From assembly GCA_027487685.1 (NCBI GenBank), contig JAIYDC010000124.1:1-49536 (forward strand): a stretch of 49,536 nt of DNA, read 5' to 3'. The position numbers and the translations under genes were made by a program. Of this stretch, positions 7,608-19,919 are shown piece by piece. The first letter of the stretch is position 1, and each line of letters begins with the position of its first letter. The stretch comes from Pseudomonadota bacterium (lineage in GTDB: Bacteria > Bdellovibrionota > Bacteriovoracia > Bacteriovoracales > Bacteriovoracaceae). The notes beneath the pieces are model-generated. The model was not told where the DNA came from. It ran no database searches and saw nothing but the letters and a program-made list of their open reading frames with translations.

Positions 7608-8420
7608 TTGAAGCATATAATTGGTCTAGTACTTACTTTACTTTCTTCGCTCTGCTTTGGTGAAGACTGTGTATCGTGTCCTCCCGGCCCAACCGTGACA
7701 AGGCCGAATGGCCCCACATGGCCAGTCGAGTTCACGCGGATCCGTCGGATAAACCTCGAGCGCAATCCTAATGCCACTTTTTGTCGAAGGCCGGTCGAAA
7801 TGGTTGATACGATCGTGATCCACCACTCCGAAACCCCGTCCACACACACAACAGAACGTATCAATGACTTCCATCTCTCGCGGGGAACAGCGGCGGATCC
7901 TTGGCTCATGATCGCTTACTCCTACGCGATCAATAGTCCCTATCCTGGGACGTCTACTCCGCAATCCTTAGTGACTGAGGGGCGACCTCTCGAGATTGTC
8001 GGTTCTCATGCAGGGACTGGGATTCTAGTTCCGATGAACCGCGATCAACAGCGACTGTGGAACCAGGGCAGGATTGTCTGTGGACGAGAAGGCGGACCCT
8101 TCAGGGTCGATCCGTCACATATTAGTGGAGATCGGATCAAGGCAAATTTTACGACAATCGGGATTGTCGTGATCGGGAACTATTCCCCATTTTCGAGGTC
8201 CAATCCTAATGGCTTTTCTCCCAGATCTCCGAGAAATCCTACCCGAGAAACACAAGACCTTCTAGCGAGGCTCTCCTGTCAGTTACAGAAAAAATACCCT
8301 GGAATCCGAAACATAAAGTGGCACAGCTTCTATCACCCGACGAGCTGCCCAGGAACTATCATAAACTACCTCGGACAGATTAAGGCCTTAGCAAGGAATT
8401 ACGGATGCACGTTCAACTAA
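7608..8420 (+). CDS. Exported N-acetylmuramoyl-L-alanine amidase (Amidase_2, PGRP-like)
   Basis: A 270-residue protein with signal peptide (about 1-18, cleaved after CFG). The Amidase_2 fold is shown by TIVIHHSETP (zinc His72 or 73), GSHAG, and KWHSFYHPTSCPG with His239, His243 and Cys247 in the typical HxxxxCPG zinc region. It should cleave the amide between MurNAc and L-Ala in the periplasm or in foreign walls. The start is TTG at 7608 with GCGAGG six bases upstream. About 40 residues rich in proline follow the signal peptide. The downstream gene overlaps its 3' end by 16 bases. Confidence 0.88.
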   Translation: MKHIIGLVLTLLSSLCFGEDCVSCPPGPTVTRPNGPTWPVEFTRIRRINLERNPNATFCRRPVEMVDTIVIHHSETPSTHTTERINDFHLSRGTAADPWLMIAYSYAINSPYPGTSTPQSLVTEGRPLEIVGSHAGTGILVPMNRDQQRLWNQGRIVCGREGGPFRVDPSHISGDRIKANFTTIGIVVIGNYSPFSRSNPNGFSPRSPRNPTRETQDLLARLSCQLQKKYPGIRNIKWHSFYHPTSCPGTIINYLGQIKALARNYGCTFN

Positions 8421-8803
8421 CTCTTCTGATGGTCCTTATGGGGATGACCTCTGCCATCGCGGCAGATGAGAAAAGCATGACTGAGCTTTTTCATAAGTAC
8501 GACATGATCATGGATCAGAAAAAAGTTGAGTTTATTGACGAGGTCTTCTCAGGCCGATTCCTCCGAGAGAGCGGAGGAAAGAAACAGTTGGTGGAAAAGA
8601 TCAATGAACTTGCTCCCATGGCCCCTAAGTCAGGGCCAGAGATAAGCTGGAGGAAGGGTCTTAAGGGAGAGGTCTACTTTGCCCGTTTTCGTGAGAGAGC
8701 TCATATAAAATCTAAGACTACTGAGAATGAGGGATCCGAGTTCATCGTTATAAAAGAAAACGGAAAACTTAAAATAGATGGGACAATCAGCGATGGTGAT
8801 TAA
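8405..8803 (+). CDS. Small exported protein, possible NTF2/SnoaL-like fold
   Basis: 132 residues with a signal peptide ending near SAIAA. The mature part (ELFHKYDMIMDQKKVEFIDE, then a helix and a beta-rich C-terminal half ending KIDGTISDGD) has the helix-then-sheet order of SnoaL-like proteins, but there is no diagnostic motif, so this is tentative. It overlaps the amidase gene by 16 bases and the next lipoprotein gene by 11 bases, so all three are translationally coupled. Confidence 0.7.
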   Translation: MHVQLTLLMVLMGMTSAIAADEKSMTELFHKYDMIMDQKKVEFIDEVFSGRFLRESGGKKQLVEKINELAPMAPKSGPEISWRKGLKGEVYFARFRERAHIKSKTTENEGSEFIVIKENGKLKIDGTISDGD

Positions 8804-9107
8804 ACTTCTGACCCTTAGCTTCGTCTTCATGACGGGCTGTGGAAACAACATCCAACTTAAAAGTAATAAACTCGAAAACATGAACGCTGCTCGATCGGCT
8901 GCGAACTATGAGAAGACCGGTACACTTAATCGGGGGAACCAGAGTACCGTCATGGCCCAGGGGCAAACTTATACGGTTAGTCCCTACAGCTCAAAGCAAG
9001 CGACGGAATTTATATCTGCCCTTCCGGTAAATACACAGGTACCCATCATTTATACCGGTGGTACTCAGGGAACAACAATCGTGTTAGAGAGCGTTCGAAG
9101 GCAATAA
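8793..9107 (+). CDS. Small lipoprotein, last gene of amidase operon
   Basis: About 104 residues from ATG 8793. MVIKLLTLSFVFMTGC is a lipoprotein signal with Cys16 as lipidation site. The mature part is polar and ends with a hydrophobic beta-like segment VPIIYTGGTQGTTIVLESV. No family recognised. An upstream in-frame ATG (8778) would place charged residues before the signal; the later start is preferred because it gives a clean lipoprotein signal. A strong hairpin follows immediately. Confidence 0.7.
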   Translation: MVIKLLTLSFVFMTGCGNNIQLKSNKLENMNAARSAANYEKTGTLNRGNQSTVMAQGQTYTVSPYSSKQATEFISALPVNTQVPIIYTGGTQGTTIVLESVRRQ

Positions 9108-9141: not shown

Positions 9142-10245
9142 TTAATTCCGGATAGCTTCAGTAGCAATAGAGTCGGAGAGGGCCGTGCTGTAGAACAGGC
9201 TATTCACCTTATTGAGACGAGCGCGGACATAAAAACGTTTCCCCTTAACCAGCTGTGACGTAGGAAATATCTTTGAGATGCTTGTATTATTCTGAACGAC
9301 TTCTTTCACAGGACCTGCAACGATCTCAGAGCAGTTTCCAAAGAAGCCTTGGCGGCAAAGCTCATAAGTGACTTCGATCTGAGCATCCTTATCCTCGACT
9401 GAGTACTTTGAAGGGATCACGAGATTCCAGGCAAAGTTGCCGGCCGTGTCCTTAGTAAGGGCCGTTGTGACCTCGTTGAGTGGGAGGGCGCGCTTGATCC
9501 GCTTACCCTCGACTTCGAGGACCGTGCCGTTGCGGTAGATTGTAGCGGAATATTCGTTGTTCCCAGTGGCGGAAAAACGAACGTCTGCTGCTTCGATCCC
9601 TACGTTGACAGTCAGAGTATCAGTCTCAAACGACTGAAGGACCTGGTTCTTAATATCGATTACGATGTTACGACGGACATAGTGAGAAAGAGTTTTAAAC
9701 TCCTGCAACGTAACCTGGTTACAAACCGACTCGACGGTACGGCAGCTTCTCTCCGAACCATAACCGAGGCTGATCATGTTGTCGTATCCGTATACTTCGA
9801 GCACCTGGCCAGCGAACTTATAGTTAAGGCCTCGCGCCCCGAGCTGCGTCTCGATCAAGCGGATAGTACGCCCAAAATCAGACCAACTATTCGGCTTTGA
9901 CGTTAAGAGGTTAAACTGCACGATCTTCTCAGCGATCGAGGGACCTATACCCTTGATGGCGCGGGCAAGAGCCGCGGACTTTTCCGCCTGCTTAACGTTG
10001 TAAAAATTATGCCAGTTGCCGGTCGAGCCATCGCCCGATTCGGAAGAACACTGAGGGACTCGGCAAACAACCTGTTCTACCACAAACCGATCTTCTACCC
10101 GGTAGAGAGGGACCGAGAAAGTGGACTCAAGCGAGGTCGTGTCTTGCTTGATGGAGAAGGTCTTTGATGCGCGACCGATCTCCAAGCGCTGGGCGAAAGC
10201 ATCGAGAGAGATCATGGCGACAACGATGAAGAGAAGATTTTTCAT
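9142..10245 (-). CDS. Exported protein with helix-hairpin-helix-like module and beta-rich C-terminal domain
   Basis: 367 residues, signal peptide about 1-19 (DAFAQ). Residues about 97-110 read IKGIGPSIAEKIV, a textbook helix-hairpin-helix (GIGP plus following helix) of the ComEA/HhH type. It is followed by PNSWSDF, a helix and NMISLGYGSERSCRTVESV. The same module pattern, without the GIGP turn, occurs twice in the neighbouring exported protein at 10403-11920. The C-terminal about 180 residues are beta-rich and could be Ig-like domains. Four cysteines in pairs suggest disulfides. ATG 10245 follows AGGAGTGAACC. Function unknown; DNA binding outside the cytoplasm is possible but not shown. Confidence 0.8.
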   Translation of the reverse strand: MKNLLFIVVAMISLDAFAQRLEIGRASKTFSIKQDTTSLESTFSVPLYRVEDRFVVEQVVCRVPQCSSESGDGSTGNWHNFYNVKQAEKSAALARAIKGIGPSIAEKIVQFNLLTSKPNSWSDFGRTIRLIETQLGARGLNYKFAGQVLEVYGYDNMISLGYGSERSCRTVESVCNQVTLQEFKTLSHYVRRNIVIDIKNQVLQSFETDTLTVNVGIEAADVRFSATGNNEYSATIYRNGTVLEVEGKRIKRALPLNEVTTALTKDTAGNFAWNLVIPSKYSVEDKDAQIEVTYELCRQGFFGNCSEIVAGPVKEVVQNNTSISKIFPTSQLVKGKRFYVRARLNKVNSLFYSTALSDSIATEAIRN

Positions 10246-10352
10246 GGTTCACTCCTGTGAAGGTTTAGAGGTTGCCCTTCATAGCACATTCTTTAAATAG
10301 CGGTGTCAGAGAGTGTAAGAGTCGGTTGTTTTTATAGGGTTGCCAAGAAAGA

Positions 10353-10375
10353 CCCGGGATGTGGTAAATCCCAGG
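10353..10375 (-). terminator. Hairpin downstream of the 10403-11920 gene
   Basis: CCCGGGAT (10353-10360) pairs with ATCCCAGG (10368-10375) with one G-T pair and a 7-nt loop, located between two same-strand genes. The downstream minus strand is only moderately T-rich, so termination may be partial. Confidence 0.5.
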
Positions 10376-10402
10376 CCATCGCTCTATAGATTCGTTTTAA
10401 AA

Positions 10403-11920
10403 CTAAAGGCCGTTAAATTCTAGGACTTTCGACCAGCGATTATTGAAAAAAACAGATCCTAGAACCTGAACCGAGACATCCAGACGAATCTTCCGGTCTG
10501 GGTTTCTCAAAGAGATCTGAGAAGCGAACTCTCCCATGTCTCCGTTATTCAACTCGAAAACCTTAGATCCCAGGAATCTATCAGGCCATGAACTGATCTC
10601 TTCGTAGATATCAACATTGACGAGAACACGACCTCCAACCATGGGACTGAAATCTTTGTTTTGAAGCACGACATTGATGAGTTTTCCGTTCCTTTTTATT
10701 CCGGCACCAATGTTGTTCCGTGGAGTGACTTGATTACGGGTACCGGCAACTTTAAATTTTACGAGTCCATTCTCGTCTGAATAGTTCGAAGTCAGGTAAG
10801 AATTAAAGCGAGTCGTGGAATTCAGGGCCACCTGGGAAAGTCCATCAAAGGTAACATTGTATTCTTCACGTTCTCCGTTCAGGAGAGGGGCCTTAGAGAT
10901 TTCGATTTCAAAGTTCTTTAAAACATTCTGGAAGAAGTCCTGAACCACACGTTTTTCCAGGACATTCACCATGCGAGTACGAACGACATTTTTACAGATT
11001 TCAGCACTCTGTTCGAAACCTAGGGCCATCCTATTCTCTGTTTCATTATCAGTGAGAACTGCTGCAAATTCGGTCTCAGGAATAGCGCCAGCAGCAAGGG
11101 ATGCCTTCATGAGAAGAAGGAATTGATCCCAGCTAACAGGGATTCCGTTAGAAGACGCGAAGTCGATAAATGAGACGCTAAGTTTTTGTGAGGTCGACTC
11201 ACTTACACCTATTAAAGTGTTGCGGATCAAATCAGAGCGAACTTTAATGGAAAGCTGAAGGTTGAAGAATCTCTGAAGTTTCCCATTCCCCTTCCCTTCA
11301 GAAATTGTGGTCCCGTCCATCGGTCTGAAACCAAGGGCCTTTTTGTTATTCTCCAGATTGACAGTAGTAATCTGGTCCAGCACAGATTGTGGAAGATCAC
11401 CGCCAGTGACCATCGATGAGAGCATATTCGAAAAACTATCCCAAGATTTAGGGATTCCGGAAATCGAAGCTTGGCGACCAAGGGACACAACGATTTGGCG
11501 CGAGAAACTCAGGCGTTCAGCACTCGGTGCCTCATTGAAAAAAGCAACATTTTTTGCAAATACTTCTGCTCTAGAAAGAAGGGGAAGGTTCATATCAAAA
11601 AGAGAGCGGAGAATCTCATTTCCGCGTCCCAAAGCGTCACCCAGAGGTACAGGCTCACAGACGGTTTCTTCAAAGGTAAATTCCTTAGCAAGACAAAAAG
11701 TCTCACGATAGTTCTTAAAAGTTTTGGCCGAAATCTCGCCCTTTAAGAATCCATCTGCTGGAGCAGTTAAATTTCCTTCGCGAAAAAAGTCTTTTTTAAC
11801 CTCTTCCCCGCTCAAACGGATTAACTCCCGTGCAAGGACTTGGCCTGGGATTGGACACTGATTTTCCTGGGCCGTCGCGCCTAGAGAAATCAATAGGAAC
11901 AAAAAAGGAATGAGGTTCAT
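10403..11920 (-). CDS. Exported protein with two internal copies of the SWDxF/HhH-like module
   Basis: 505 residues, signal peptide about 1-17 (GATAQ). Residues 131-199 and 240-302 are a degenerate tandem duplication: each has a Ser/Ala-rich helix, then G-I-P-x-S-W-D-x-F (155-163 and 259-267), another helix and an Asn-rich turn ending in A-L-G-F. The neighbour at 9142-10245 has one further copy. After the second copy comes ICKNVVRT, matching SCRTVESV of the neighbour, then a beta-rich C-terminal domain. ATG 11920 has AAGGAGA upstream and an AT-rich TATATT element. I recognise no named family; the pair look like paralogues. Confidence 0.8.
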   Translation of the reverse strand: MNLIPFLFLLISLGATAQENQCPIPGQVLARELIRLSGEEVKKDFFREGNLTAPADGFLKGEISAKTFKNYRETFCLAKEFTFEETVCEPVPLGDALGRGNEILRSLFDMNLPLLSRAEVFAKNVAFFNEAPSAERLSFSRQIVVSLGRQASISGIPKSWDSFSNMLSSMVTGGDLPQSVLDQITTVNLENNKKALGFRPMDGTTISEGKGNGKLQRFFNLQLSIKVRSDLIRNTLIGVSESTSQKLSVSFIDFASSNGIPVSWDQFLLLMKASLAAGAIPETEFAAVLTDNETENRMALGFEQSAEICKNVVRTRMVNVLEKRVVQDFFQNVLKNFEIEISKAPLLNGEREEYNVTFDGLSQVALNSTTRFNSYLTSNYSDENGLVKFKVAGTRNQVTPRNNIGAGIKRNGKLINVVLQNKDFSPMVGGRVLVNVDIYEEISSWPDRFLGSKVFELNNGDMGEFASQISLRNPDRKIRLDVSVQVLGSVFFNNRWSKVLEFNGL

Positions 11921-12133: not shown

Positions 12134-12643
12134 CTAAGCTTTAACGATTCGATCTCTCCACGCAATAACGTCGGCCGCGAGGTAGTCGTACTTCATCCCA
12201 TCAATGGTGTACTGGGAAAACTCATAATCATGAGAATGAGTGAGGCATTCCGTAGGACAAACAGTCGTGCAAAGACCACAATAACAACAAAGGGCGGTAT
12301 CAATCGTAAACTGAGTCAGCTTTAAGCGGATCGCCTGACCATTCGAAGTTTTCTTAATCTCTGTGCCCTCTGGAAGCTTTTCCGAGGCGATGTAGATGCA
12401 ATCAACCGGGCAGGCCATTGCGCACTGGGTGCAGCTGATACAGTTTTGAGCATCGTTGAATAAACGCATGCGCGCCCGCTCCGGAAGGACTTCACGCACC
12501 TCCGGGTATTCGATGGAGACGGGTTTCACGGCCCAGACGTAGCGGAAGGTAATCCACATGCCCTTTACAGTCGTCGAAATCCCGTTGAAGAGACCACGGA
12601 AATACTCTTTGAAAGAATTTGTGTCTTGAACGGCAGTACTCAT
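12134..12643 (-). CDS. nuoI: NADH-quinone oxidoreductase subunit I (two 4Fe-4S clusters)
   Basis: 169 residues. Two ferredoxin motifs are complete, CISCTQCAMACP and CCYCGLCTTVCP, which carry clusters N6a and N6b of Complex I between the peripheral arm and the quinone site. The N-terminal region (GMWITFRYVWAVKPVSIEYP) is the amphipathic membrane-contacting part typical of NuoI. It starts with an ATGA overlap with nuoD. Confidence 0.95.
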   Translation of the reverse strand: MSTAVQDTNSFKEYFRGLFNGISTTVKGMWITFRYVWAVKPVSIEYPEVREVLPERARMRLFNDAQNCISCTQCAMACPVDCIYIASEKLPEGTEIKKTSNGQAIRLKLTQFTIDTALCCYCGLCTTVCPTECLTHSHDYEFSQYTIDGMKYDYLAADVIAWRDRIVKA

Positions 12644-13815
12644 CGGTCCACCTCTCCTAGTACGATGTCGATTGACCCCACAGTCGCAACGAAGTCAGCA
12701 ATCATCTGACCTGGAGCAACCCGAGGAAGCATTGAAACGTGCGTAAAGCACGGAGATTTAACTTTTAAGCGGTAAGGTTGTTTGGCATCGCCCTCTGAAA
12801 CGAGGTGGAAAGCAAGTTCTCCTCTAGGACACTCGTGGCGAAGATAAATCTCTCCCTTCGGAAGCTTTATGATCTTCGGTACTTTGCCCATCACTGGACC
12901 TGGCTCGAGCTTAGTCAGAACCTGCCGGATGATTTTTATGGATTCCACAACTTCGCGCATGCGCACGTAGTATCGGTTCCAGCAGTCACCGACTTGACCA
13001 AGTTCACCCGTTCCTACCGGGACATCAAAATCGAATTCTGGATAAAGAGAGTAAGGTACGTTCTTCCGGAGGTCCCAGTTCAGGCCTGAGCCACGTAGGA
13101 CAGGACCAGAAGCCCCATAGTCAAGGCAGTCCTGGAGTGAATAGACACCAACGTTGGCCGTACGCTGGACGAAGATCTTATTCAGGGAAACAAGCTCGTG
13201 GTACTTCTTAGCTTCTTCTTCCATGGTGTCACAGAAAGTTGAGACTCGGCTGAGCTGCTCAGTAGTCCAGTCGTTCCAAACGCCACCGACCCAGATGTAA
13301 TTGTATAGAAGCCTGGCACCGGAAACTTCCTCAAAGAGGCGCAGGATCTTCTCGCGTTCTTCGAAAGCATAAAGGAAGGGACTGAACGCACCCAAATCAA
13401 GAGCGTAAGTTCCGAAGGCCATAAGGTGGGATCCAATCCGCTGGAGTTCGGCAGTAAGGATACGCAAGAGCTCGGCGCGACGAGGGACTTCAGTTCCCAG
13501 CATCTTTTCCACCGCGGCCACATAGGTCCATTCCATGCTCATGGAAGCAAGATAATCCAGTCGATCAACGAACGGAATCACTCCCCGAAAATCAAGATTC
13601 TCAGAGTGCTTTTCCATGCACCGGTGAAGGTAGCCTAGGTGTGGGATAGCGTGGGCGACAATTTCCGAATCCGTCCAGATCTCGATCCGTAGAACACCGT
13701 GGGTCGCAGGATGCTGTGGCCCCATGTTCAAAGTTAAGAGCTCTGACTTGAGCTGTTCGGTTTCAATATTGATGGTTGGCTTTTCCGGTTCGCCGATATC
13801 CCAACGAGTTTGCAT
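12640..13815 (-). CDS. nuoD: NADH-quinone oxidoreductase subunit D (49-kDa)
   Basis: 391 residues, the usual length for stand-alone NuoD. NMGPQHPATHGVLR near residue 30 and the C-terminal CPRGELAFHLVSEG and DIVLGEVDR are hallmarks of the 49-kDa quinone-site subunit. Not fused to NuoC as it is in E. coli. Fourteen bases separate it from nuoC. Confidence 0.96.
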   Translation of the reverse strand: MQTRWDIGEPEKPTINIETEQLKSELLTLNMGPQHPATHGVLRIEIWTDSEIVAHAIPHLGYLHRCMEKHSENLDFRGVIPFVDRLDYLASMSMEWTYVAAVEKMLGTEVPRRAELLRILTAELQRIGSHLMAFGTYALDLGAFSPFLYAFEEREKILRLFEEVSGARLLYNYIWVGGVWNDWTTEQLSRVSTFCDTMEEEAKKYHELVSLNKIFVQRTANVGVYSLQDCLDYGASGPVLRGSGLNWDLRKNVPYSLYPEFDFDVPVGTGELGQVGDCWNRYYVRMREVVESIKIIRQVLTKLEPGPVMGKVPKIIKLPKGEIYLRHECPRGELAFHLVSEGDAKQPYRLKVKSPCFTHVSMLPRVAPGQMIADFVATVGSIDIVLGEVDR

Positions 13816-13829
13816 ATGTGTCTACCCTC

Positions 13830-14414
13830 TTATTGAGCTTTTGCTTGTTGCGCTTTTTTGATCATGTCCTGACGGACAATAAATTCGCGGTCATCGAAGT
13901 TCATCTTGCTGTCCGGGTAAACGGCCATACCGTTGTAGTCCTTCTGGGCCACGTAGTCCTTCCGAAGTGGCCACCCTTGCCAGTCATCTGGACAGAGGAT
14001 CCGCCTGAGGTCTGGGTGGTTATTGAAACGGATTCCGAACATGTCATAGACCTCGCGCTCCTGAAAGTTTGCCGCGGCGAAGAGCCTTACAATCGAATCG
14101 AGTGCAGGGGAGACACGATCCGTGAGCTGAACTTTTAGGATCAAGTCTCGGGGAGAAGCAGGATCGTAGTGAGTCAGCATGTAGCAGACTTCCATGTGGT
14201 CTAGGTAGTCGACTCCGCTAATGACATGAAGAGAGTTAAAAGGCAGCTCGCTGTTGGTCTTTAAAAATTCAACCACGCTAAAAATCTTAGAGGCTTCGAC
14301 AGTGACGCTTCCGTCGAGCTTTTTGGTATCCTCAGGAAGGAAGGCCACAGCGTTCGCACCGGCAACGTGCCGATTAATCAGTTCAGCGACTTTTATCACA
14401 TCAATGTTAAGCAT
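13830..14414 (-). CDS. nuoC: NADH-quinone oxidoreductase subunit C (30-kDa)
   Basis: 194 residues. The family block [20 protein letters not shown] followed by [12 protein letters not shown] is present. The C-terminal about 35 residues ([18 protein letters not shown]) end in a basic, Gln-rich tail. The start overlaps the nuoB end by 8 bases. Confidence 0.95.
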
Positions 14415-14889
14415 GCTTTACCCACTTGTTGCGAAGGAGACGTTCGTTGGCAATCTTCTTTTGAAGAGTCATGACACCCTCAATCAGGGCCTCAGGCCGA
14501 GGAGGACATCCTGGAACATAGACGTCAACAGGAACAACCTCATTAACGCCCTTGAGAACATGGTAGCCATGTTGCCAATAAGGTCCACCCTTGTTTGCGC
14601 AAGAGCCCATGGAGATAACATACTTAGGCTCGGCCATTTGCTCGTAAAGAACCTTTACCCGCGACGCCATTTTAAGAGTAACCGTACCAGCGACGATCAT
14701 GAGATCCGCCCGACGTGGTGTCGCCATAAAAGCTCCGCATCCGAAACGCTCTAAATCGTACTTTGAAGCACCGGTGGCCATCATTTCAATCGCGCAGCAA
14801 GCGAGACCAAAAGTCATCGGCCAGAGTGAATTTTTTCGGCCCCAGTTCAAAAAGTCGTCAAGGGTCGTAAGGACAACACCATCTTGCAT
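14407..14889 (-). CDS. nuoB: NADH-quinone oxidoreductase subunit B (cluster N2)
   Basis: 160 residues. The four N2 ligands are visible: Cys31-Cys32 in GLACCAIEM, Cys97 in MGSCA and Cys128 in PGCPPRPE. This subunit passes electrons to quinone together with NuoD. It is the first gene of a nuoBCDI operon; no nuoA lies upstream, where a minus-strand promoter is visible instead. Confidence 0.96.
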
Positions 14890-15031: not shown

Positions 15032-15952
15032 TTACTTTTGGGCGCAGCGAGAGGAGTAGCTTTGCAGGAACTTGTTTTGCCCTTTATCCTCCGAGGCCGG
15101 GCCTCGTTTAGGGCCTTGCTGCATGTAGGCGAGGCGCTTCCTGTCATTCTCACATACTTTATTAATAACTAGGTCGTATTCCATGAGTGCGGCTATCGGG
15201 TATGGCACTCCGTAAGCCGAGGAAATAAAATTTATTTTCTCGGCTTTAATATCGGTAAATGCCCCGGCCATTTCGCGTTTTTGCAACTGTGTGCGAAACC
15301 CTTCATAGTATGAACCTATGTGATAAAAAAGCTCAACTGCTCGGTTGTAAGAAAGCTCCCCTGAGCCATCTTCGATTTTCTGGCAATTAGAGCGACTCCG
15401 AACATTCTGCGAGAAAAGTTCTCGAAGGACGCGGCACTCGGTTAAGAAGGCCTGGACCTCCCCACCTCCACCTTCAATCGTGGACTTGATAAAGTCCCTG
15501 GCATTAAAGGATTCTGAATAAGGGTTAAAACTCTCGCGGTACACATAGTGAGTAAGTTCATGGGCGAGGTCGAGGATAGCGTCGTCCCAGGCAAGGCCGC
15601 GATTGATGTAAACAACCGAGCGAGATTCATAAATCACGTGCTCCGGAGAATGAGGCGAGAATTTCCTCACCAAAGTGGTATCGGTGAGTGATCCCTCGCC
15701 CACCTTTATAACGTCCTCCAAAAGAAGACCCGACCGAGAGGCCTTATGTTGGGCCTCTTTTATAAGTTTCTCTCCACTCGCTGATCGGCCTAGGAGTTCG
15801 AGAAGTTTCTTCATGTTCAGCTCGGGCGACGATGTATAGTCCATCCATGTTCGCGAGGCGCTCATCGACCCCTCAACGTGAATAGTCTTCTCAACCAAAG
15901 CGTGCGTGGCGAGTGGAATGGTGACGAAGAAAAAAGTAAGAAACGTCTTCAT
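15032..15952 (-). CDS. Exported gluzincin-like zinc metalloprotease
   Basis: 306 residues, signal peptide about 1-18. LAHELTHYVYRES carries the HExxH zinc motif; STIEGGGGEVQAF about 25 residues later has a glutamate (GGGE) suited as third ligand, as in gluzincins. Several cysteines in the C-terminal half. It follows the lipoprotein cluster on the same strand with only 49 bp between; that gap contains a hairpin covering the ribosome site. Substrate unknown. Confidence 0.72.
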   Translation of the reverse strand: MKTFLTFFFVTIPLATHALVEKTIHVEGSMSASRTWMDYTSSPELNMKKLLELLGRSASGEKLIKEAQHKASRSGLLLEDVIKVGEGSLTDTTLVRKFSPHSPEHVIYESRSVVYINRGLAWDDAILDLAHELTHYVYRESFNPYSESFNARDFIKSTIEGGGGEVQAFLTECRVLRELFSQNVRSRSNCQKIEDGSGELSYNRAVELFYHIGSYYEGFRTQLQKREMAGAFTDIKAEKINFISSAYGVPYPIAALMEYDLVINKVCENDRKRLAYMQQGPKRGPASEDKGQNKFLQSYSSRCAQK

Positions 15953-15953
15953 T

Positions 15954-15973
15954 ACCCTGCTCTTCGGCAGGGT
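15954..15973 (-). promoter_or_regulatory. Hairpin occluding the ribosome-binding site of the 15032-15952 gene
   Basis: ACCCTGC (15954-15960) pairs with GCAGGGT (15967-15973) around a 6-nt CUUCGG-like loop. On the minus strand the only Shine-Dalgarno-like AGGG lies in the stem nearest the ATG, which starts one base away. It could be a short terminator/attenuator after the lipoprotein operon, a translational brake, or both. Confidence 0.5.
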
Positions 15974-16001
15974 CAGTGAGAACTCGAGTCAAAATTGCGA
16001 T

Positions 16002-17654
16002 TTAATCCCAGAGGCGGAAAGTGAAGATAGTCTTACCTGAGTCTTTCACTTCAAAGGCACCAAGAATCCGAGAAGGAGCGTCCGGCCCCTTGTCTCCAGA
16101 GTAGGTCCCAAGTCCGACCTGATACTTACCCGGCGCTAATTTTACCTCGGACATTCGAAGGGCCTGGGGCAGGGTTGTCCAATGACGTGTATCTGCCTTC
16201 TCAAGAGCGGCGATCCCTTTCGAAGCGCCAACGTAAGTTGCCATGGCGGCCGACTTTGCAAAAAAATCCCCGCCTTGCCCACTCGCGGCATTAACCGAGC
16301 GGTAGACTTTATAGGCCGCCGCGATTGCAAGCAGGTGCCTGAGAGCAACACGAGTCCCAGTCTTAACATAACGTGCAACGACATCCTCCTCGAGGACAAC
16401 TCGTGCGAGGTCTCCATTTTCGGATACGATCGGTAGCGGTTTACGCTCAACGACGCCACCCTTGCTATCTAGAACGAAAAGCTCCCGCCGCTGAACCAAT
16501 GGCACCTCCTCGATCATAGGGAGCTCGAACTCGACCGCCGCTTCTTGAACTGCGAGACGGGTGACACTATGAGCGAAAACAAAGCTTCCGGGGTCTGCGC
16601 TTCTTTCTGGAACCATACCAAGTTTGTTCATAGCAAATGCCGTGACGACTTCAGTTCCTACAGTCGCAATAAACGCCTTGAGGCCCGGGTTCTCGACGGC
16701 GCTGATGGCACCTTTGATCCCAAAGTTAAAGGGCTTACCAACCTTCTGGGGAATCAGCCCCTCCTCGACCACCAGGACGACGTTCCCAGGGCCCCCACGA
16801 ACGCGCTTTAAGACCTCGGCTCCAGGGGCCAGGGCCTTGGCCTGTACATCAAATTCACCACCTCGAATCTCTTTTGTAAGGGTAAGGATTTTGTAATGGA
16901 GGAAGTCCTTTAAATCATTGTTAAGGGCCGTAGGGGTGTAGAGTTTTTCGGTGGGCTTACCGTCGCGCTCGAAGGCCCGAATATAATCGGTATTAGAACG
17001 ATTGAAGACCGAGAAGATCCCACCTTGTGTGGCCAGGACCTGAAGCGCATCCTTGTAGAGTTGGAGCGCGATCTGGAGATCAGTTCTAATTCCGCTCGCC
17101 TCGTGAATCTGGCCGCCAAAGACCTTAAGCAAAAGATCCGTCGAGTAAAGAGTGCTGGCCGAGGCCCCGCGCTGAAGCTCTGTAAAGTAAGTGTCCCAGG
17201 CCAGGATCGTTGCCCGTGCCCCTTGCAGATCCAGCTTATTCCCACGCTTTTGGTAACGAGAATAAAGGCTTTGGGAGAGGTAGTAATGGGCGTATGAGCG
17301 CTCATAACTGGCACCGTAAAACTCGTCCGATGAGTCGTTAATAAGGAGACTTGCGGCCTTGCTCCCAAGCTTCGTAGTGAAGAGGCGATCAATTAACTCC
17401 AGTGAGGCCTGGAAGTGCATGATGGCCTTGTCCTCGTTTCCAATCGCATGGGCGACTGTGCCTGCTTCGAGATGCCAAAGGAGTTCACTCTTCTTGGCCC
17501 CTTTAAGGTCGGAGGCTTCTAGAAGAGCAGACGCTTTCGAATAATCCTGTAAAGCGTATGCTTCCCGGTACTCCTTCATCTGGTCCTTCATCCGGGAAGA
17601 GCATGCCCCCAGGATAAGGAGAAAGAGGACCGGGAGGACGGAGTGCCTTACCAT
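16002..17654 (-). CDS. COG3014-family TPR-like lipoprotein
   Basis: 550 residues, lipoprotein signal with Cys18 (LILGAC). The N-terminal half is helical with TPR-like pairs (AYALQDYSKASALLEAS, AIGNEDKAIMHFQASLELI); the C-terminal half includes the conserved block AALNNDLKDFLHYK and NVVLVVEEGLIPQK, and ends in a beta-rich domain. This matches the COG3014 lipoproteins that are habitually encoded beside LpoB-like and LPP20-like lipoproteins. It overlaps lpoB by 7 bases. Probable envelope location; molecular role unknown. Confidence 0.82.
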   Translation of the reverse strand: MVRHSVLPVLFLLILGACSSRMKDQMKEYREAYALQDYSKASALLEASDLKGAKKSELLWHLEAGTVAHAIGNEDKAIMHFQASLELIDRLFTTKLGSKAASLLINDSSDEFYGASYERSYAHYYLSQSLYSRYQKRGNKLDLQGARATILAWDTYFTELQRGASASTLYSTDLLLKVFGGQIHEASGIRTDLQIALQLYKDALQVLATQGGIFSVFNRSNTDYIRAFERDGKPTEKLYTPTALNNDLKDFLHYKILTLTKEIRGGEFDVQAKALAPGAEVLKRVRGGPGNVVLVVEEGLIPQKVGKPFNFGIKGAISAVENPGLKAFIATVGTEVVTAFAMNKLGMVPERSADPGSFVFAHSVTRLAVQEAAVEFELPMIEEVPLVQRRELFVLDSKGGVVERKPLPIVSENGDLARVVLEEDVVARYVKTGTRVALRHLLAIAAAYKVYRSVNAASGQGGDFFAKSAAMATYVGASKGIAALEKADTRHWTTLPQALRMSEVKLAPGKYQVGLGTYSGDKGPDAPSRILGAFEVKDSGKTIFTFRLWD

Positions 17655-18253
17655 CCGACCTTAGATTTTTCCGAGTACTTAAAGACCTTCGTACGTGTGC
17701 GGAGAACCTCCGTCGCCTTCTCGATATCTGTCATCCGCATATTAACGGAATACTCTTTAATCGTTTTGCCGTCGCGCTTCTCCGGCTTCATGTAGACGTT
17801 ACCGAAGATCATGATGTCGGCACCGGTTTGCTTGCCAATTTTCTTGGCAGTCGCAGGATCAACCATACCATCATTCTGGTAAGTGACTTCCTTTAAGATT
17901 GTCTCCCTGGCCTGGTTGTCGACGAGTTCGAATTCGCCGGACATAGAAAGCTCATTCAGGAGTTCGTCGTTTAAGTCTCCGATTGGGAAATACGCCTCAG
18001 AAGTCTGGTTCTGAACGTCGGCCACAAACACTTTCGGAGTCCCGAAACGCGCCTTCATTTTAGTAAAACCTGGGTGCGCCTTCATCTGCTTAATAACATC
18101 AGCAATCGCCTGCGAGGTGTCCGCACTCATCCAATTGTCAGTAATCGCAAGTCCCTTTTCGTCGGAAGTATTCGCATCGACGCGTTCAGCTTTAAAGCTT
18201 CCACAAGACGAGGCTAGAAGAGAAAGGGCCAGAACTGGGGCAATAAATTTCAT
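17648..18253 (-). CDS. LpoB-like penicillin-binding protein activator lipoprotein (COG3417)
   Basis: 201 residues, lipoprotein signal with Cys17 (LLASSC). The globular domain contains the family landmarks ISDN-like ITDNWMSADTSQAIAD, PKVFVADVQNQTSE, FELVDNQARETILKE, and GADIMIFGNV followed by the long SVNMRMTDIEKATEV strand. In enterobacteria LpoB stimulates PBP1b from the outer membrane; homologues in COG3014/LPP20 clusters are less studied, so I do not use the gene name. Confidence 0.85.
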   Translation of the reverse strand: MKFIAPVLALSLLASSCGSFKAERVDANTSDEKGLAITDNWMSADTSQAIADVIKQMKAHPGFTKMKARFGTPKVFVADVQNQTSEAYFPIGDLNDELLNELSMSGEFELVDNQARETILKEVTYQNDGMVDPATAKKIGKQTGADIMIFGNVYMKPEKRDGKTIKEYSVNMRMTDIEKATEVLRTRTKVFKYSEKSKVGW

Positions 18254-18265
18254 GAGTGTCTCCTA

Positions 18266-18946
18266 TTAAACTTCACCGTGACGGGCCTTCACGAAGTCCT
18301 CATCCAGGTTCTGTAGTGCCTTTTTAACATTTTCCTTAACTTCCGGATCGGCTTTTTCAACCAGGTCCTCGGAAGCCTTTTCAATGGCCGTCTTGAGTCG
18401 ATCAGTTTCCATGCGAATAAGTGCTGCACAAGTAAAGCCGAAGTAGTCCTTCTTGGCACCGAGGCTTTTTTGATAGCTGCGCTTCTCCCAGTAAGTTTTG
18501 ATGACTCCGGCGCCGTGGACCAGGGATTGGATCCGCTCAGACAATGTGTTTGAAACATAGTCGCGCATCGCTTGAGTCTTAGGATTATTCGCATCGATCG
18601 CGGCGGAGCCTTCGGTCGACTCAGCCAGAGACTTCTGAATAAAAGTTGTAATTTCAGCAGCAATTACACTCCGGGCGTTGGCCTGAGCAAGGTTACAAGC
18701 GATTTCGCGGTTAACTTTAGGCTCTGTTTCGAAGGAGAAGAAGCGGAACTTCTTCGTATCCATGCTTTCTTGTGTTGCCCAACCCTCGGCGTCTTCGATC
18801 CAGCCAGGCCGAACACCATTTGTGGCCGATTCCTTTACCACATAATCCCGAGAGATGGTTTCTGAGTAATCAACTTCCTTAATCTTTTTCTTGGATGAGC
18901 ACGCGCCGGAAAGAGCGAGGATCGCGAAGAAAGTTAGTAGTTTCAT
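18266..18946 (-). CDS. LPP20-family-like lipoprotein
   Basis: 226 residues, lipoprotein signal with Cys16 (LSGACSS). Mature region contains RPGWIED, then EIACNLAQANARSVIAAEIT, the pattern of an LPP20 domain (aromatic residue, then a helix of Ala-rich turn-over residues), and a Glu/Lys-rich C-terminal coiled-coil tail. Twelve bases upstream of the LpoB-like gene, sixteen downstream of another LPP20-like gene. Confidence 0.72.
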   Translation of the reverse strand: MKLLTFFAILALSGACSSKKKIKEVDYSETISRDYVVKESATNGVRPGWIEDAEGWATQESMDTKKFRFFSFETEPKVNREIACNLAQANARSVIAAEITTFIQKSLAESTEGSAAIDANNPKTQAMRDYVSNTLSERIQSLVHGAGVIKTYWEKRSYQKSLGAKKDYFGFTCAALIRMETDRLKTAIEKASEDLVEKADPEVKENVKKALQNLDEDFVKARHGEV

Positions 18947-18962
18947 AGTGGACTCCTTTTCA

Positions 18963-19919
18963 TTAGTCGAGGTCGAGATCTGCTAAGTGTTGTTCAATGT
19001 ATTCAGTGAAGTAGTGTCGGACCTTCAGAAGTGCATCTGATTGGCTCCGGCCAGTAACGGTTTCCGAGACTGCCAGGACCTTGCGCTTCTCTCCCCGCTC
19101 GAAGCTCGTCATATTCAGCGTGAAGGTGTACTTCTCAAAGCCTGAGACGTTGAGATATTCCTTGATCGACTCAACATTCACAGAGACGGCTTTATTTGAG
19201 TCACCTTTGACGAGGCGAAAGCCTGACTCTGTAAGTAGCTCTCGAAGTTTTTCCGTAAGCCACTCCGGAGCTTGTCCTATCCGCAAAGCGAGCGCCTCAT
19301 CGCGGGACTTTGACTGCCGCCACTCTGTCAGCTCCTTCCAGCTCACGGGAGCAATCCTCGGAGTCCCTGCTACTATAGAATAGCGCTCGTTGAGTTTATC
19401 GCGTTCCAGGTAAAGGCGCGTGATGCGGCGAAGGTTTGTTCGATTCCGCCGCTGCCAAAGAACACTGAGCTCATCATCGAGCTTTTTGAGTCGGCCACCT
19501 ATAAGGTCACTCGCCTTTCCACGGTCTAAAGAGGCCAGGGAGTAGGAAAGACCTTTCTCGCGGTAGTGCTTCTTAACTTCGACAGTCTCGAGGACTTGGT
19601 CTACGGATTCTTTCAGCGAACGTCGGACCTCTTCCCGAACAGCACCTTGCCAAGGAAAGGACTGAGTCATTGTACTTTCAGCAGTCAGTTCGGAAGCGAC
19701 GTGCACCTCGAAAATACTCGCAAGATTCTTGCGTGCTTCGGCGTCGGCCTGGCCGAGGGTACGGGCCTCACCTGTGGCGCAGAGTTCACGCTCCTGCGAA
19801 CACTCGTCATAGGGGGAGTAGAGCCATGCTGGTGCCTTCTTCAATTCGTCCGTAGGCGTGGGCTTTGGACTCATAAGAGAGCATCCGCTCAAAATGAGGA
19901 GTAGGAAAAGTTTATTCAT
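18963..19919 (-). CDS. LPP20-family lipoprotein, first gene of lipoprotein operon
   Basis: 318 residues, lipoprotein signal with Cys13 (LILSGC). The LPP20 block is APAWLYSP ... LCATGEARTLGQADAEARKN, followed by LASIFEVHVASEL. A basic coiled-coil region (about 150-180) and a beta-rich C-terminal part follow. It starts a four-gene operon, LPP20-like, LPP20-like, LpoB-like, COG3014. There is no ribosome site and a -10 box lies 8 nt from ATG. Confidence 0.82.
   Translation of the reverse strand: MNKLFLLLILSGCSLMSPKPTPTDELKKAPAWLYSPYDECSQERELCATGEARTLGQADAEARKNLASIFEVHVASELTAESTMTQSFPWQGAVREEVRRSLKESVDQVLETVEVKKHYREKGLSYSLASLDRGKASDLIGGRLKKLDDELSVLWQRRNRTNLRRITRLYLERDKLNERYSIVAGTPRIAPVSWKELTEWRQSKSRDEALALRIGQAPEWLTEKLRELLTESGFRLVKGDSNKAVSVNVESIKEYLNVSGFEKYTFTLNMTSFERGEKRKVLAVSETVTGRSQSDALLKVRHYFTEYIEQHLADLDLD

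Follow-up and report, generated by a model that had tools for sequence, protein, structure and literature searches.

What does a helix-hairpin-helix (HhH) motif do in a protein that leaves the cytoplasm? HhH motifs are familiar chiefly from DNA enzymes of the cytoplasm; among exported proteins the established case is ComEA. The question is raised by two adjacent genes of a Bdellovibrionota bacterium, encoding P0001 and P0002, on a contig of 49,536 nucleotides (the window; JAIYDC010000124.1). A preliminary description, made from this stretch alone, took them for a duplicated pair of exported proteins with a common HhH-like module that may bind DNA.

Locus and gene models

The two adjacent exported reading frames of that description are confirmed, both on the minus strand and both with signal-peptide-like N-termini of the ordinary type on reading of the sequence (Table 1). 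They are flanked by a nuoI-like gene on one side and by a short cluster of exported-protein genes on the other. The nuoI-like gene is clustered with nuoD, nuoC and nuoB-like genes (12134-14889), other complex I genes not adjoining, and the same four genes are also clustered in the sister genome G123 (L069). A row of exported proteins follows at 15032-19919, including an LpoB/CsgG-like lipoprotein (17648-18253), an LPP20-type lipoprotein (18963-19919) and three proteins without a Pfam match. On the far side of the pair lie an exported N-acetylmuramoyl-L-alanine amidase (Amidase_2; 7608-8420) and then two small exported proteins without a family (8405-8803 and 8778-9107), a gene order that is the same in G123.

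Table 1. Features of P0001 and P0002, in positions of the window
Feature	Position	Strand	Basis
P0001, 367 aa, exported, one HhH module (canonical family member)	9142..10245	-	ORF call and profile search
P0001 signal peptide, about residues 1-18 (predicted)	10192..10245	-	Sequence reading; pLDDT <50 for residues 1-16
P0001 long beta strand 38-66, first stem arm, C61 and C66 at its end	10048..10134	-	AlphaFold model; cysteine conservation
P0001 module, residues 74-162 (WxxFY helix, HhH, KPxSW helix, N...LGY helices)	9760..10026	-	Alignment, model, conservation
P0001 helix-hairpin-helix, residues 86-110 (LARAIKGIGPSIAEKIVQ)	9916..9990	-	Modelled helices 86-96 and 102-110; hhalign to HHH_3, HHH_5 and HHH_6
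P0001 long beta strand 168-199, second stem arm, C168 and C175 at its start	9649..9744	-	AlphaFold model; cysteine conservation
P0001 C-terminal Ig/FN3-like domain, residues 251-367	9145..9495	-	VIA-align to many FN3 domains, Z about 10
P0002, 505 aa, exported, two divergent modules	10403..11920	-	ORF call and HMM/profile search
P0002 module copy 1, residues about 98-199, degenerate hairpin FNEAPSAERL	11324..11629	-	HMM domain 154-199; module profile E 9.6e-4 (genome search)
P0002 module copy 2, residues about 212-301, degenerate hairpin IGVSESTSQKL	11018..11287	-	HMM domain 216-305; helix order in model
P0002 C-terminal beta region, homologous to the P0001 one; residues about 336-505	10406..10915	-	Profile match E 5.7e-18

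A module shared by the two proteins

A module of ~90 residues occurs once in P0001 and twice in P0002, and its copies are homologous beyond chance. A module HMM made from residues 74-168 of P0001 and 16 relatives, with P0002 left out, scores P0002 at 39.3 bits (E 6.6e-11) in two domains (154-199 and 216-305), against a best score of 8.8 bits among 2000 shuffled versions of P0002. A full-length profile, also without P0002, finds copy 2 together with the C-terminal region in a genome search (E 5.7e-18, covering 10427-11209). Direct comparison of P0001 with P0002 is marginal (E 0.012), and it is the matches of the relatives' profiles to P0002 that settle the homology of the three copies. The shared module had been described with this copy number, which holds, and with a length of about 65 residues, which omitted the initial WxxFY helix. 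Its layout runs from a W..FY helix through a helix-KGIG-helix and a KPRSW..F helix to a final ..Y..(E/D)N..NLGY. In the predicted models, the five helices of P0002 copy 2 come in the order seen in P0001. The P0002 model is poor except in copy 2 and at the C-terminus, and the copy 1 region, at pLDDT <50, yields no usable model of that copy.

The hairpin of P0001 and its decay in P0002

On the basis of conservation, profile matches and a modelled helix-turn-helix, KGIGPSIAEKIV in P0001 is a genuine helix-hairpin-helix. Residues L93, G99, G101, P118, W121, F124, N156 and G161 are identical in all 27 single-module members and A105 in 26 of them. The HhH pattern hxxhxGhGxxxAxxhh is followed in the same 27, with hydrophobic residues at 97, 100 and 108 throughout and at 109 in most. 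Aligned by hhalign with HhH domains taken from the genomes of relatives, the module matches HHH_5 over 52 columns (probability 87.7, P 3e-6), HHH_6 over 34 columns that reach into the next helix (74.7, P 2.6e-5) and HHH_3 (72.5, P 3e-5); none of 200 column permutations attained the score for any of the three. The AlphaFold model predicts helices 86-96 and 102-110 round a five-residue turn at pLDDT about 84-91. The hairpin is followed in the model by a connecting helix (121-137) and then by a pair of short ones (145-151 and 153-159); a further GxG hairpin is not conserved among the 27.

Searched against 369 genomes, the module profile matches four non-family proteins, all DnaE-like (E 9e-4 to 6e-3). 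Two are DNA polymerase III alpha subunits confirmed by Pfam, with the match in or at HHH_6, and the other two are alike by sequence. Apart from these, the module occurs in that search only in the architecture described below.

The textbook turn of the preliminary description is thus a feature of P0001, the only one of the two with an intact GIG; the hairpin is degenerate in both copies of P0002. Its orthologues keep YGLGTTQATRI and YGSGRPSAERL as the copy 1 hairpin. Charge differs too: the modules of P0002 have net charges of +1 and -1, whereas those of single-module members reach +4.1 on average and the P0001-type module has +4. Outside the module, single-module members average +0.17 per 93 aa. 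Basic residues recur at fixed places: position 98 is basic in 18 of the 27 single-module members, and positions 89 and 117 are K/R in 25-26 of 27.

Architecture of the family

The AlphaFold model of P0001 has a mean pLDDT of 82.6 from a 6-row alignment, structure alignments being shallow here (6-7 rows), and the placement of its domains is loose because pTM is only 0.51. The order of elements is a strand (38-66), helices 77-83, 86-96, 102-110, 121-137, 145-151 and 153-159, a second strand (168-199) and then beta structure. Since the two long strands bracket the helices in the model, the module is placed as an insertion between them, and we consider it very probable that in this exported family an HhH module is set between two long strands, with an Ig/FN3-like domain following. 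The pairing of these strands into a stem is predicted from their positions in the model. The CxxV strand noted after the module in the preliminary description is present, and it now looks like one arm of a cysteine-clamped stem that brackets the module or modules.

Cysteine co-occurrence fits three disulfides, 66-168, 61-175 and 297-305. C66 and C168 are both present in 26 of the 27 single-module members; C61 and C175 occur together in 16 and are both missing from 11, as are C297 and C305 from 9, with both present in 18. This reading is only suggestive, because on the tree the co-occurrence comes down to two and one independent changes. The inner cysteine pair of P0002-type proteins (C88 and C309 in P0002) encloses both modules.

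The beta-rich C-terminal region also recognised earlier takes an Ig/FN3-like fold in the P0001 model, a seven-strand beta sandwich aligned by VIA-align at Z 9-10 over about 100 residues with an rmsd of about 3, and that of P0002 is homologous. Foldseek and VIA results are dominated by this domain, and the lack of HhH structures among them carries no meaning. In one family member (L022, in G040) a long low-complexity insert rich in proline and lysine separates the module from the second strand.

Distribution and history

As judged by profile, P0001 and P0002 are members of one unnamed exported family, found here only in the predatory-type Bdellovibrionota. By profile search the family is present in 30 of the 369 genomes of Bdellovibrionota searched, spread over about a dozen families and usually with one member per genome. 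The P0001 query matches 24 of 291 genomes of the phylum, a few of the weakest probably by chance, and eight genomes are matched at the same genes by both the P0001 and the P0002 query. No known family was recognised by sequence for either protein in Pfam, NCBIfam or PDB; weak single matches to Neugrin (for P0002), Ig_Shg and a leucyl-tRNA ligase were discarded as chance. Also discarded were matches of the P0001 profile at E about 0.006-0.008 in proteins of 800 aa (L023-L025), of which L023 is by eye a Lon-type protease. The exported family that the preliminary description surmised exists, has relatives elsewhere in the phylum and remains unnamed. Scanning named genomes with strict patterns gave five loci, all in Bdellovibrionota, the strictness leaving room for members beyond the phylum. 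One locus, L040 (JAGTJX010000002.1), is titled Lysobacteraceae; it encodes the same protein as G044, which is placed in Bdellovibrionota, and the title is probably wrong. In another genome (G325:C332:12009-13224) a family gene is split over two frames with an X run close by, which is probably a gap in the assembly.

A lipobox is present in several relatives, nine by script and more by eye, so the members are taken to be soluble exported proteins or lipoproteins. A phage or plasmid origin was considered and rejected, there being no match in phage or plasmid collections or IMG/VR; PHROGs gave one marginal match among 21 family members. By eye from ORF starts, no operon or conserved neighbour was seen at 20 loci and the five named ones.

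The pair itself fared differently from its family. Conservation of both proteins side by side in Bdellovibrionota was looked for, and they occur together only in the window genome. The closest orthologue of P0001, in G123, occupies the corresponding site, some 140 bases from nuoI, without P0002, and the P0002-type orthologues of the congeners G193 and G309 lie in different, unrelated surroundings. On the tree the three P0002-type proteins group in a clade of their own (SH-aLRT 99), deep and far from P0001. On the evidence of the separate deep clade and the unlinked orthologue loci, a tandem duplication of P0001 and P0002 is rejected, and the duplicated pair originally described is no recent duplicate.

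Possible function

The best explanation is that this exported family holds an HhH module out on a stem; to the explanation as a whole, including the ligands and the fate of the P0002 type set out below, we assign a probability of about 0.4. Disulfides C66-C168 and C61-C175 in P0001, and C88-C309 in P0002, would clamp the stem at its ends, and the clamped stem would preserve the fold of the module at the cell surface or in the oxidising periplasm. Less certainly, the positively charged HhH of the P0001 type may hold double-stranded DNA through its GIG hairpin without sequence specificity. The P0001 type would then be an envelope or outer-membrane-anchored DNA-binding protein not tied to competence, with prey-derived, biofilm or scavenged DNA as possible ligands. 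Because the GIG hairpin is invariant and the module positively charged, such non-specific binding is plausible for the P0001 type, though we hold to it tentatively. It is less likely for P0002, whose hairpins are degenerate and uncharged. With two modules in one stem, decayed hairpins and, in P0002, no net charge, the P0002 type probably lost DNA binding and kept the fold as a spacer or a protein-binding platform. The suggestion that both proteins bind extracellular DNA or another polymer is accordingly possible for the first type and weakened for P0002.

Three other explanations bear on this proposal. HhH-like folds serve protein contacts too, and exported Ig/FN3 scaffolds are commonly adhesive. 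A helical HhH/SAM-like head on such a scaffold might thus be a protein-protein or structural module with no DNA role in either type, binding a surface protein of the prey, a partner subunit or some other protein of the envelope. The residues with the strongest conservation are core-like (W78, W121, F124, N156, L160, G161 and Y162), the lysine with which ComEA contacts DNA is absent, and the P0002 type retains the module though the hairpin is lost and, in P0002, the charge as well. What this account leaves unexplained is the GxG hairpin, the nucleic-acid signature of HhH, which all 27 single-module members keep unchanged, and the net positive module in a protein whose remainder is neutral. On balance we rate a head that binds protein as almost equal in likelihood to one that binds DNA. 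A further alternative is that the module is an unrelated helical fold in which a short glycine turn arose by convergence. In none of the members scanned does a Pfam HhH model reach the cut-off (best E 0.013), and P0001 itself gives sub-threshold HhH matches only (HHH_8 E 0.11, HHH 0.23). Convergence would nevertheless have to reproduce profile scores against three HhH families far above those of permuted columns, an HHH_6 alignment that continues past the hairpin and a modelled helix, turn and helix, and we consider it improbable.

The last alternative, that the family stands in for ComEA as a periplasmic DNA receptor in natural transformation, seems very unlikely indeed. The proteins are exported and contain an HhH, and the window genome has no separate ComEA-like protein, its only HHH_3 protein being Tex-sized (839 aa); a congener (G307:C2:138058-138719) has two adjoining HHH_3, ComEA-like proteins of 192 and 177 aa. 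A competence role is nonetheless unlikely because ComEC, a marker of transformation, passes the cut-off in 15 of 30 carriers of the family against 11 of 20 hand-picked non-carriers, which is no association, and no ComEC match was found in the window genome, nor in G123. Competence or pilus genes were not recognised beside the family genes, and at the loci inspected no neighbouring genes pointed to DNA handling. DNA binding by ComEA needs a lysine, K63 in V. cholerae (PMC3879209) and K164 in B. subtilis (PMC9747964). This lysine pair is not conserved here: the corresponding residue 104 of P0001 is S or T in 21 of 27 members and never K.

A wider reading of the stem-held module is that predatory bacteria possess a DNA-holding class of proteins, independent of competence and unlike ComEA in architecture, in which an HhH on a disulfide-clamped stem captures prey or environmental DNA in the periplasm or at the surface, the tandem branch represented by P0002 having been repurposed. 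This we regard as doubtful. If true, this exported, competence-independent HhH family, patchily distributed in Bdellovibrionota, would represent a novel type of nucleic-acid-binding protein of the envelope and would be a candidate for the handling of environmental or prey DNA. Should the family not bind DNA, it would be a clean case of the HhH fold put to another use, with hairpin decay in the P0002 branch while the fold persists.

Comparison with known systems

Among cytoplasmic HhH proteins, a close likeness is to DNA polymerase III alpha (HHH_6, PF14579), where an A(I/V)KG(I/V)G motif likewise precedes a conserved F..(S/G)F..F helix, and whose type provides the only non-family matches of the module profile. 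HHH_6 lies within a cytoplasmic polymerase as an internal domain, whereas the family module is exported, lies between cysteine-flanked strands and has a signature of its own (KPRSW, N..NLGY) without a clear second hairpin. The RuvA-type HhH (HHH_5, PF14520) gives the profile match of highest probability; unlike the family, it is cytoplasmic and tandem, with two intact hairpins. The C-terminal beta sandwich recalls exported Ig/FN3-like scaffolds such as the V. cholerae biofilm protein RbmA, a Foldseek match. That likeness is one of generic fold at 8-12% identity to proteins without an HhH module and implies no family relation. GspK was considered as another exported helical case, and a literature search yielded nothing on it.

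ComEA (HHH_3, PF12836) shares with the family both export and an HhH with a GIG hairpin (PMC3879209, PMC9747964). In ComEA two HhH motifs stand in tandem and the lysine three residues beyond the second G of GIG is essential, whereas the family has one hairpin per module, S or T at the lysine site, an Ig-like body and no link to ComEC. The comparison with ComEA drawn in the preliminary description therefore holds as a functional analogy only, since the conserved lysine is missing and the family does not track ComEC.
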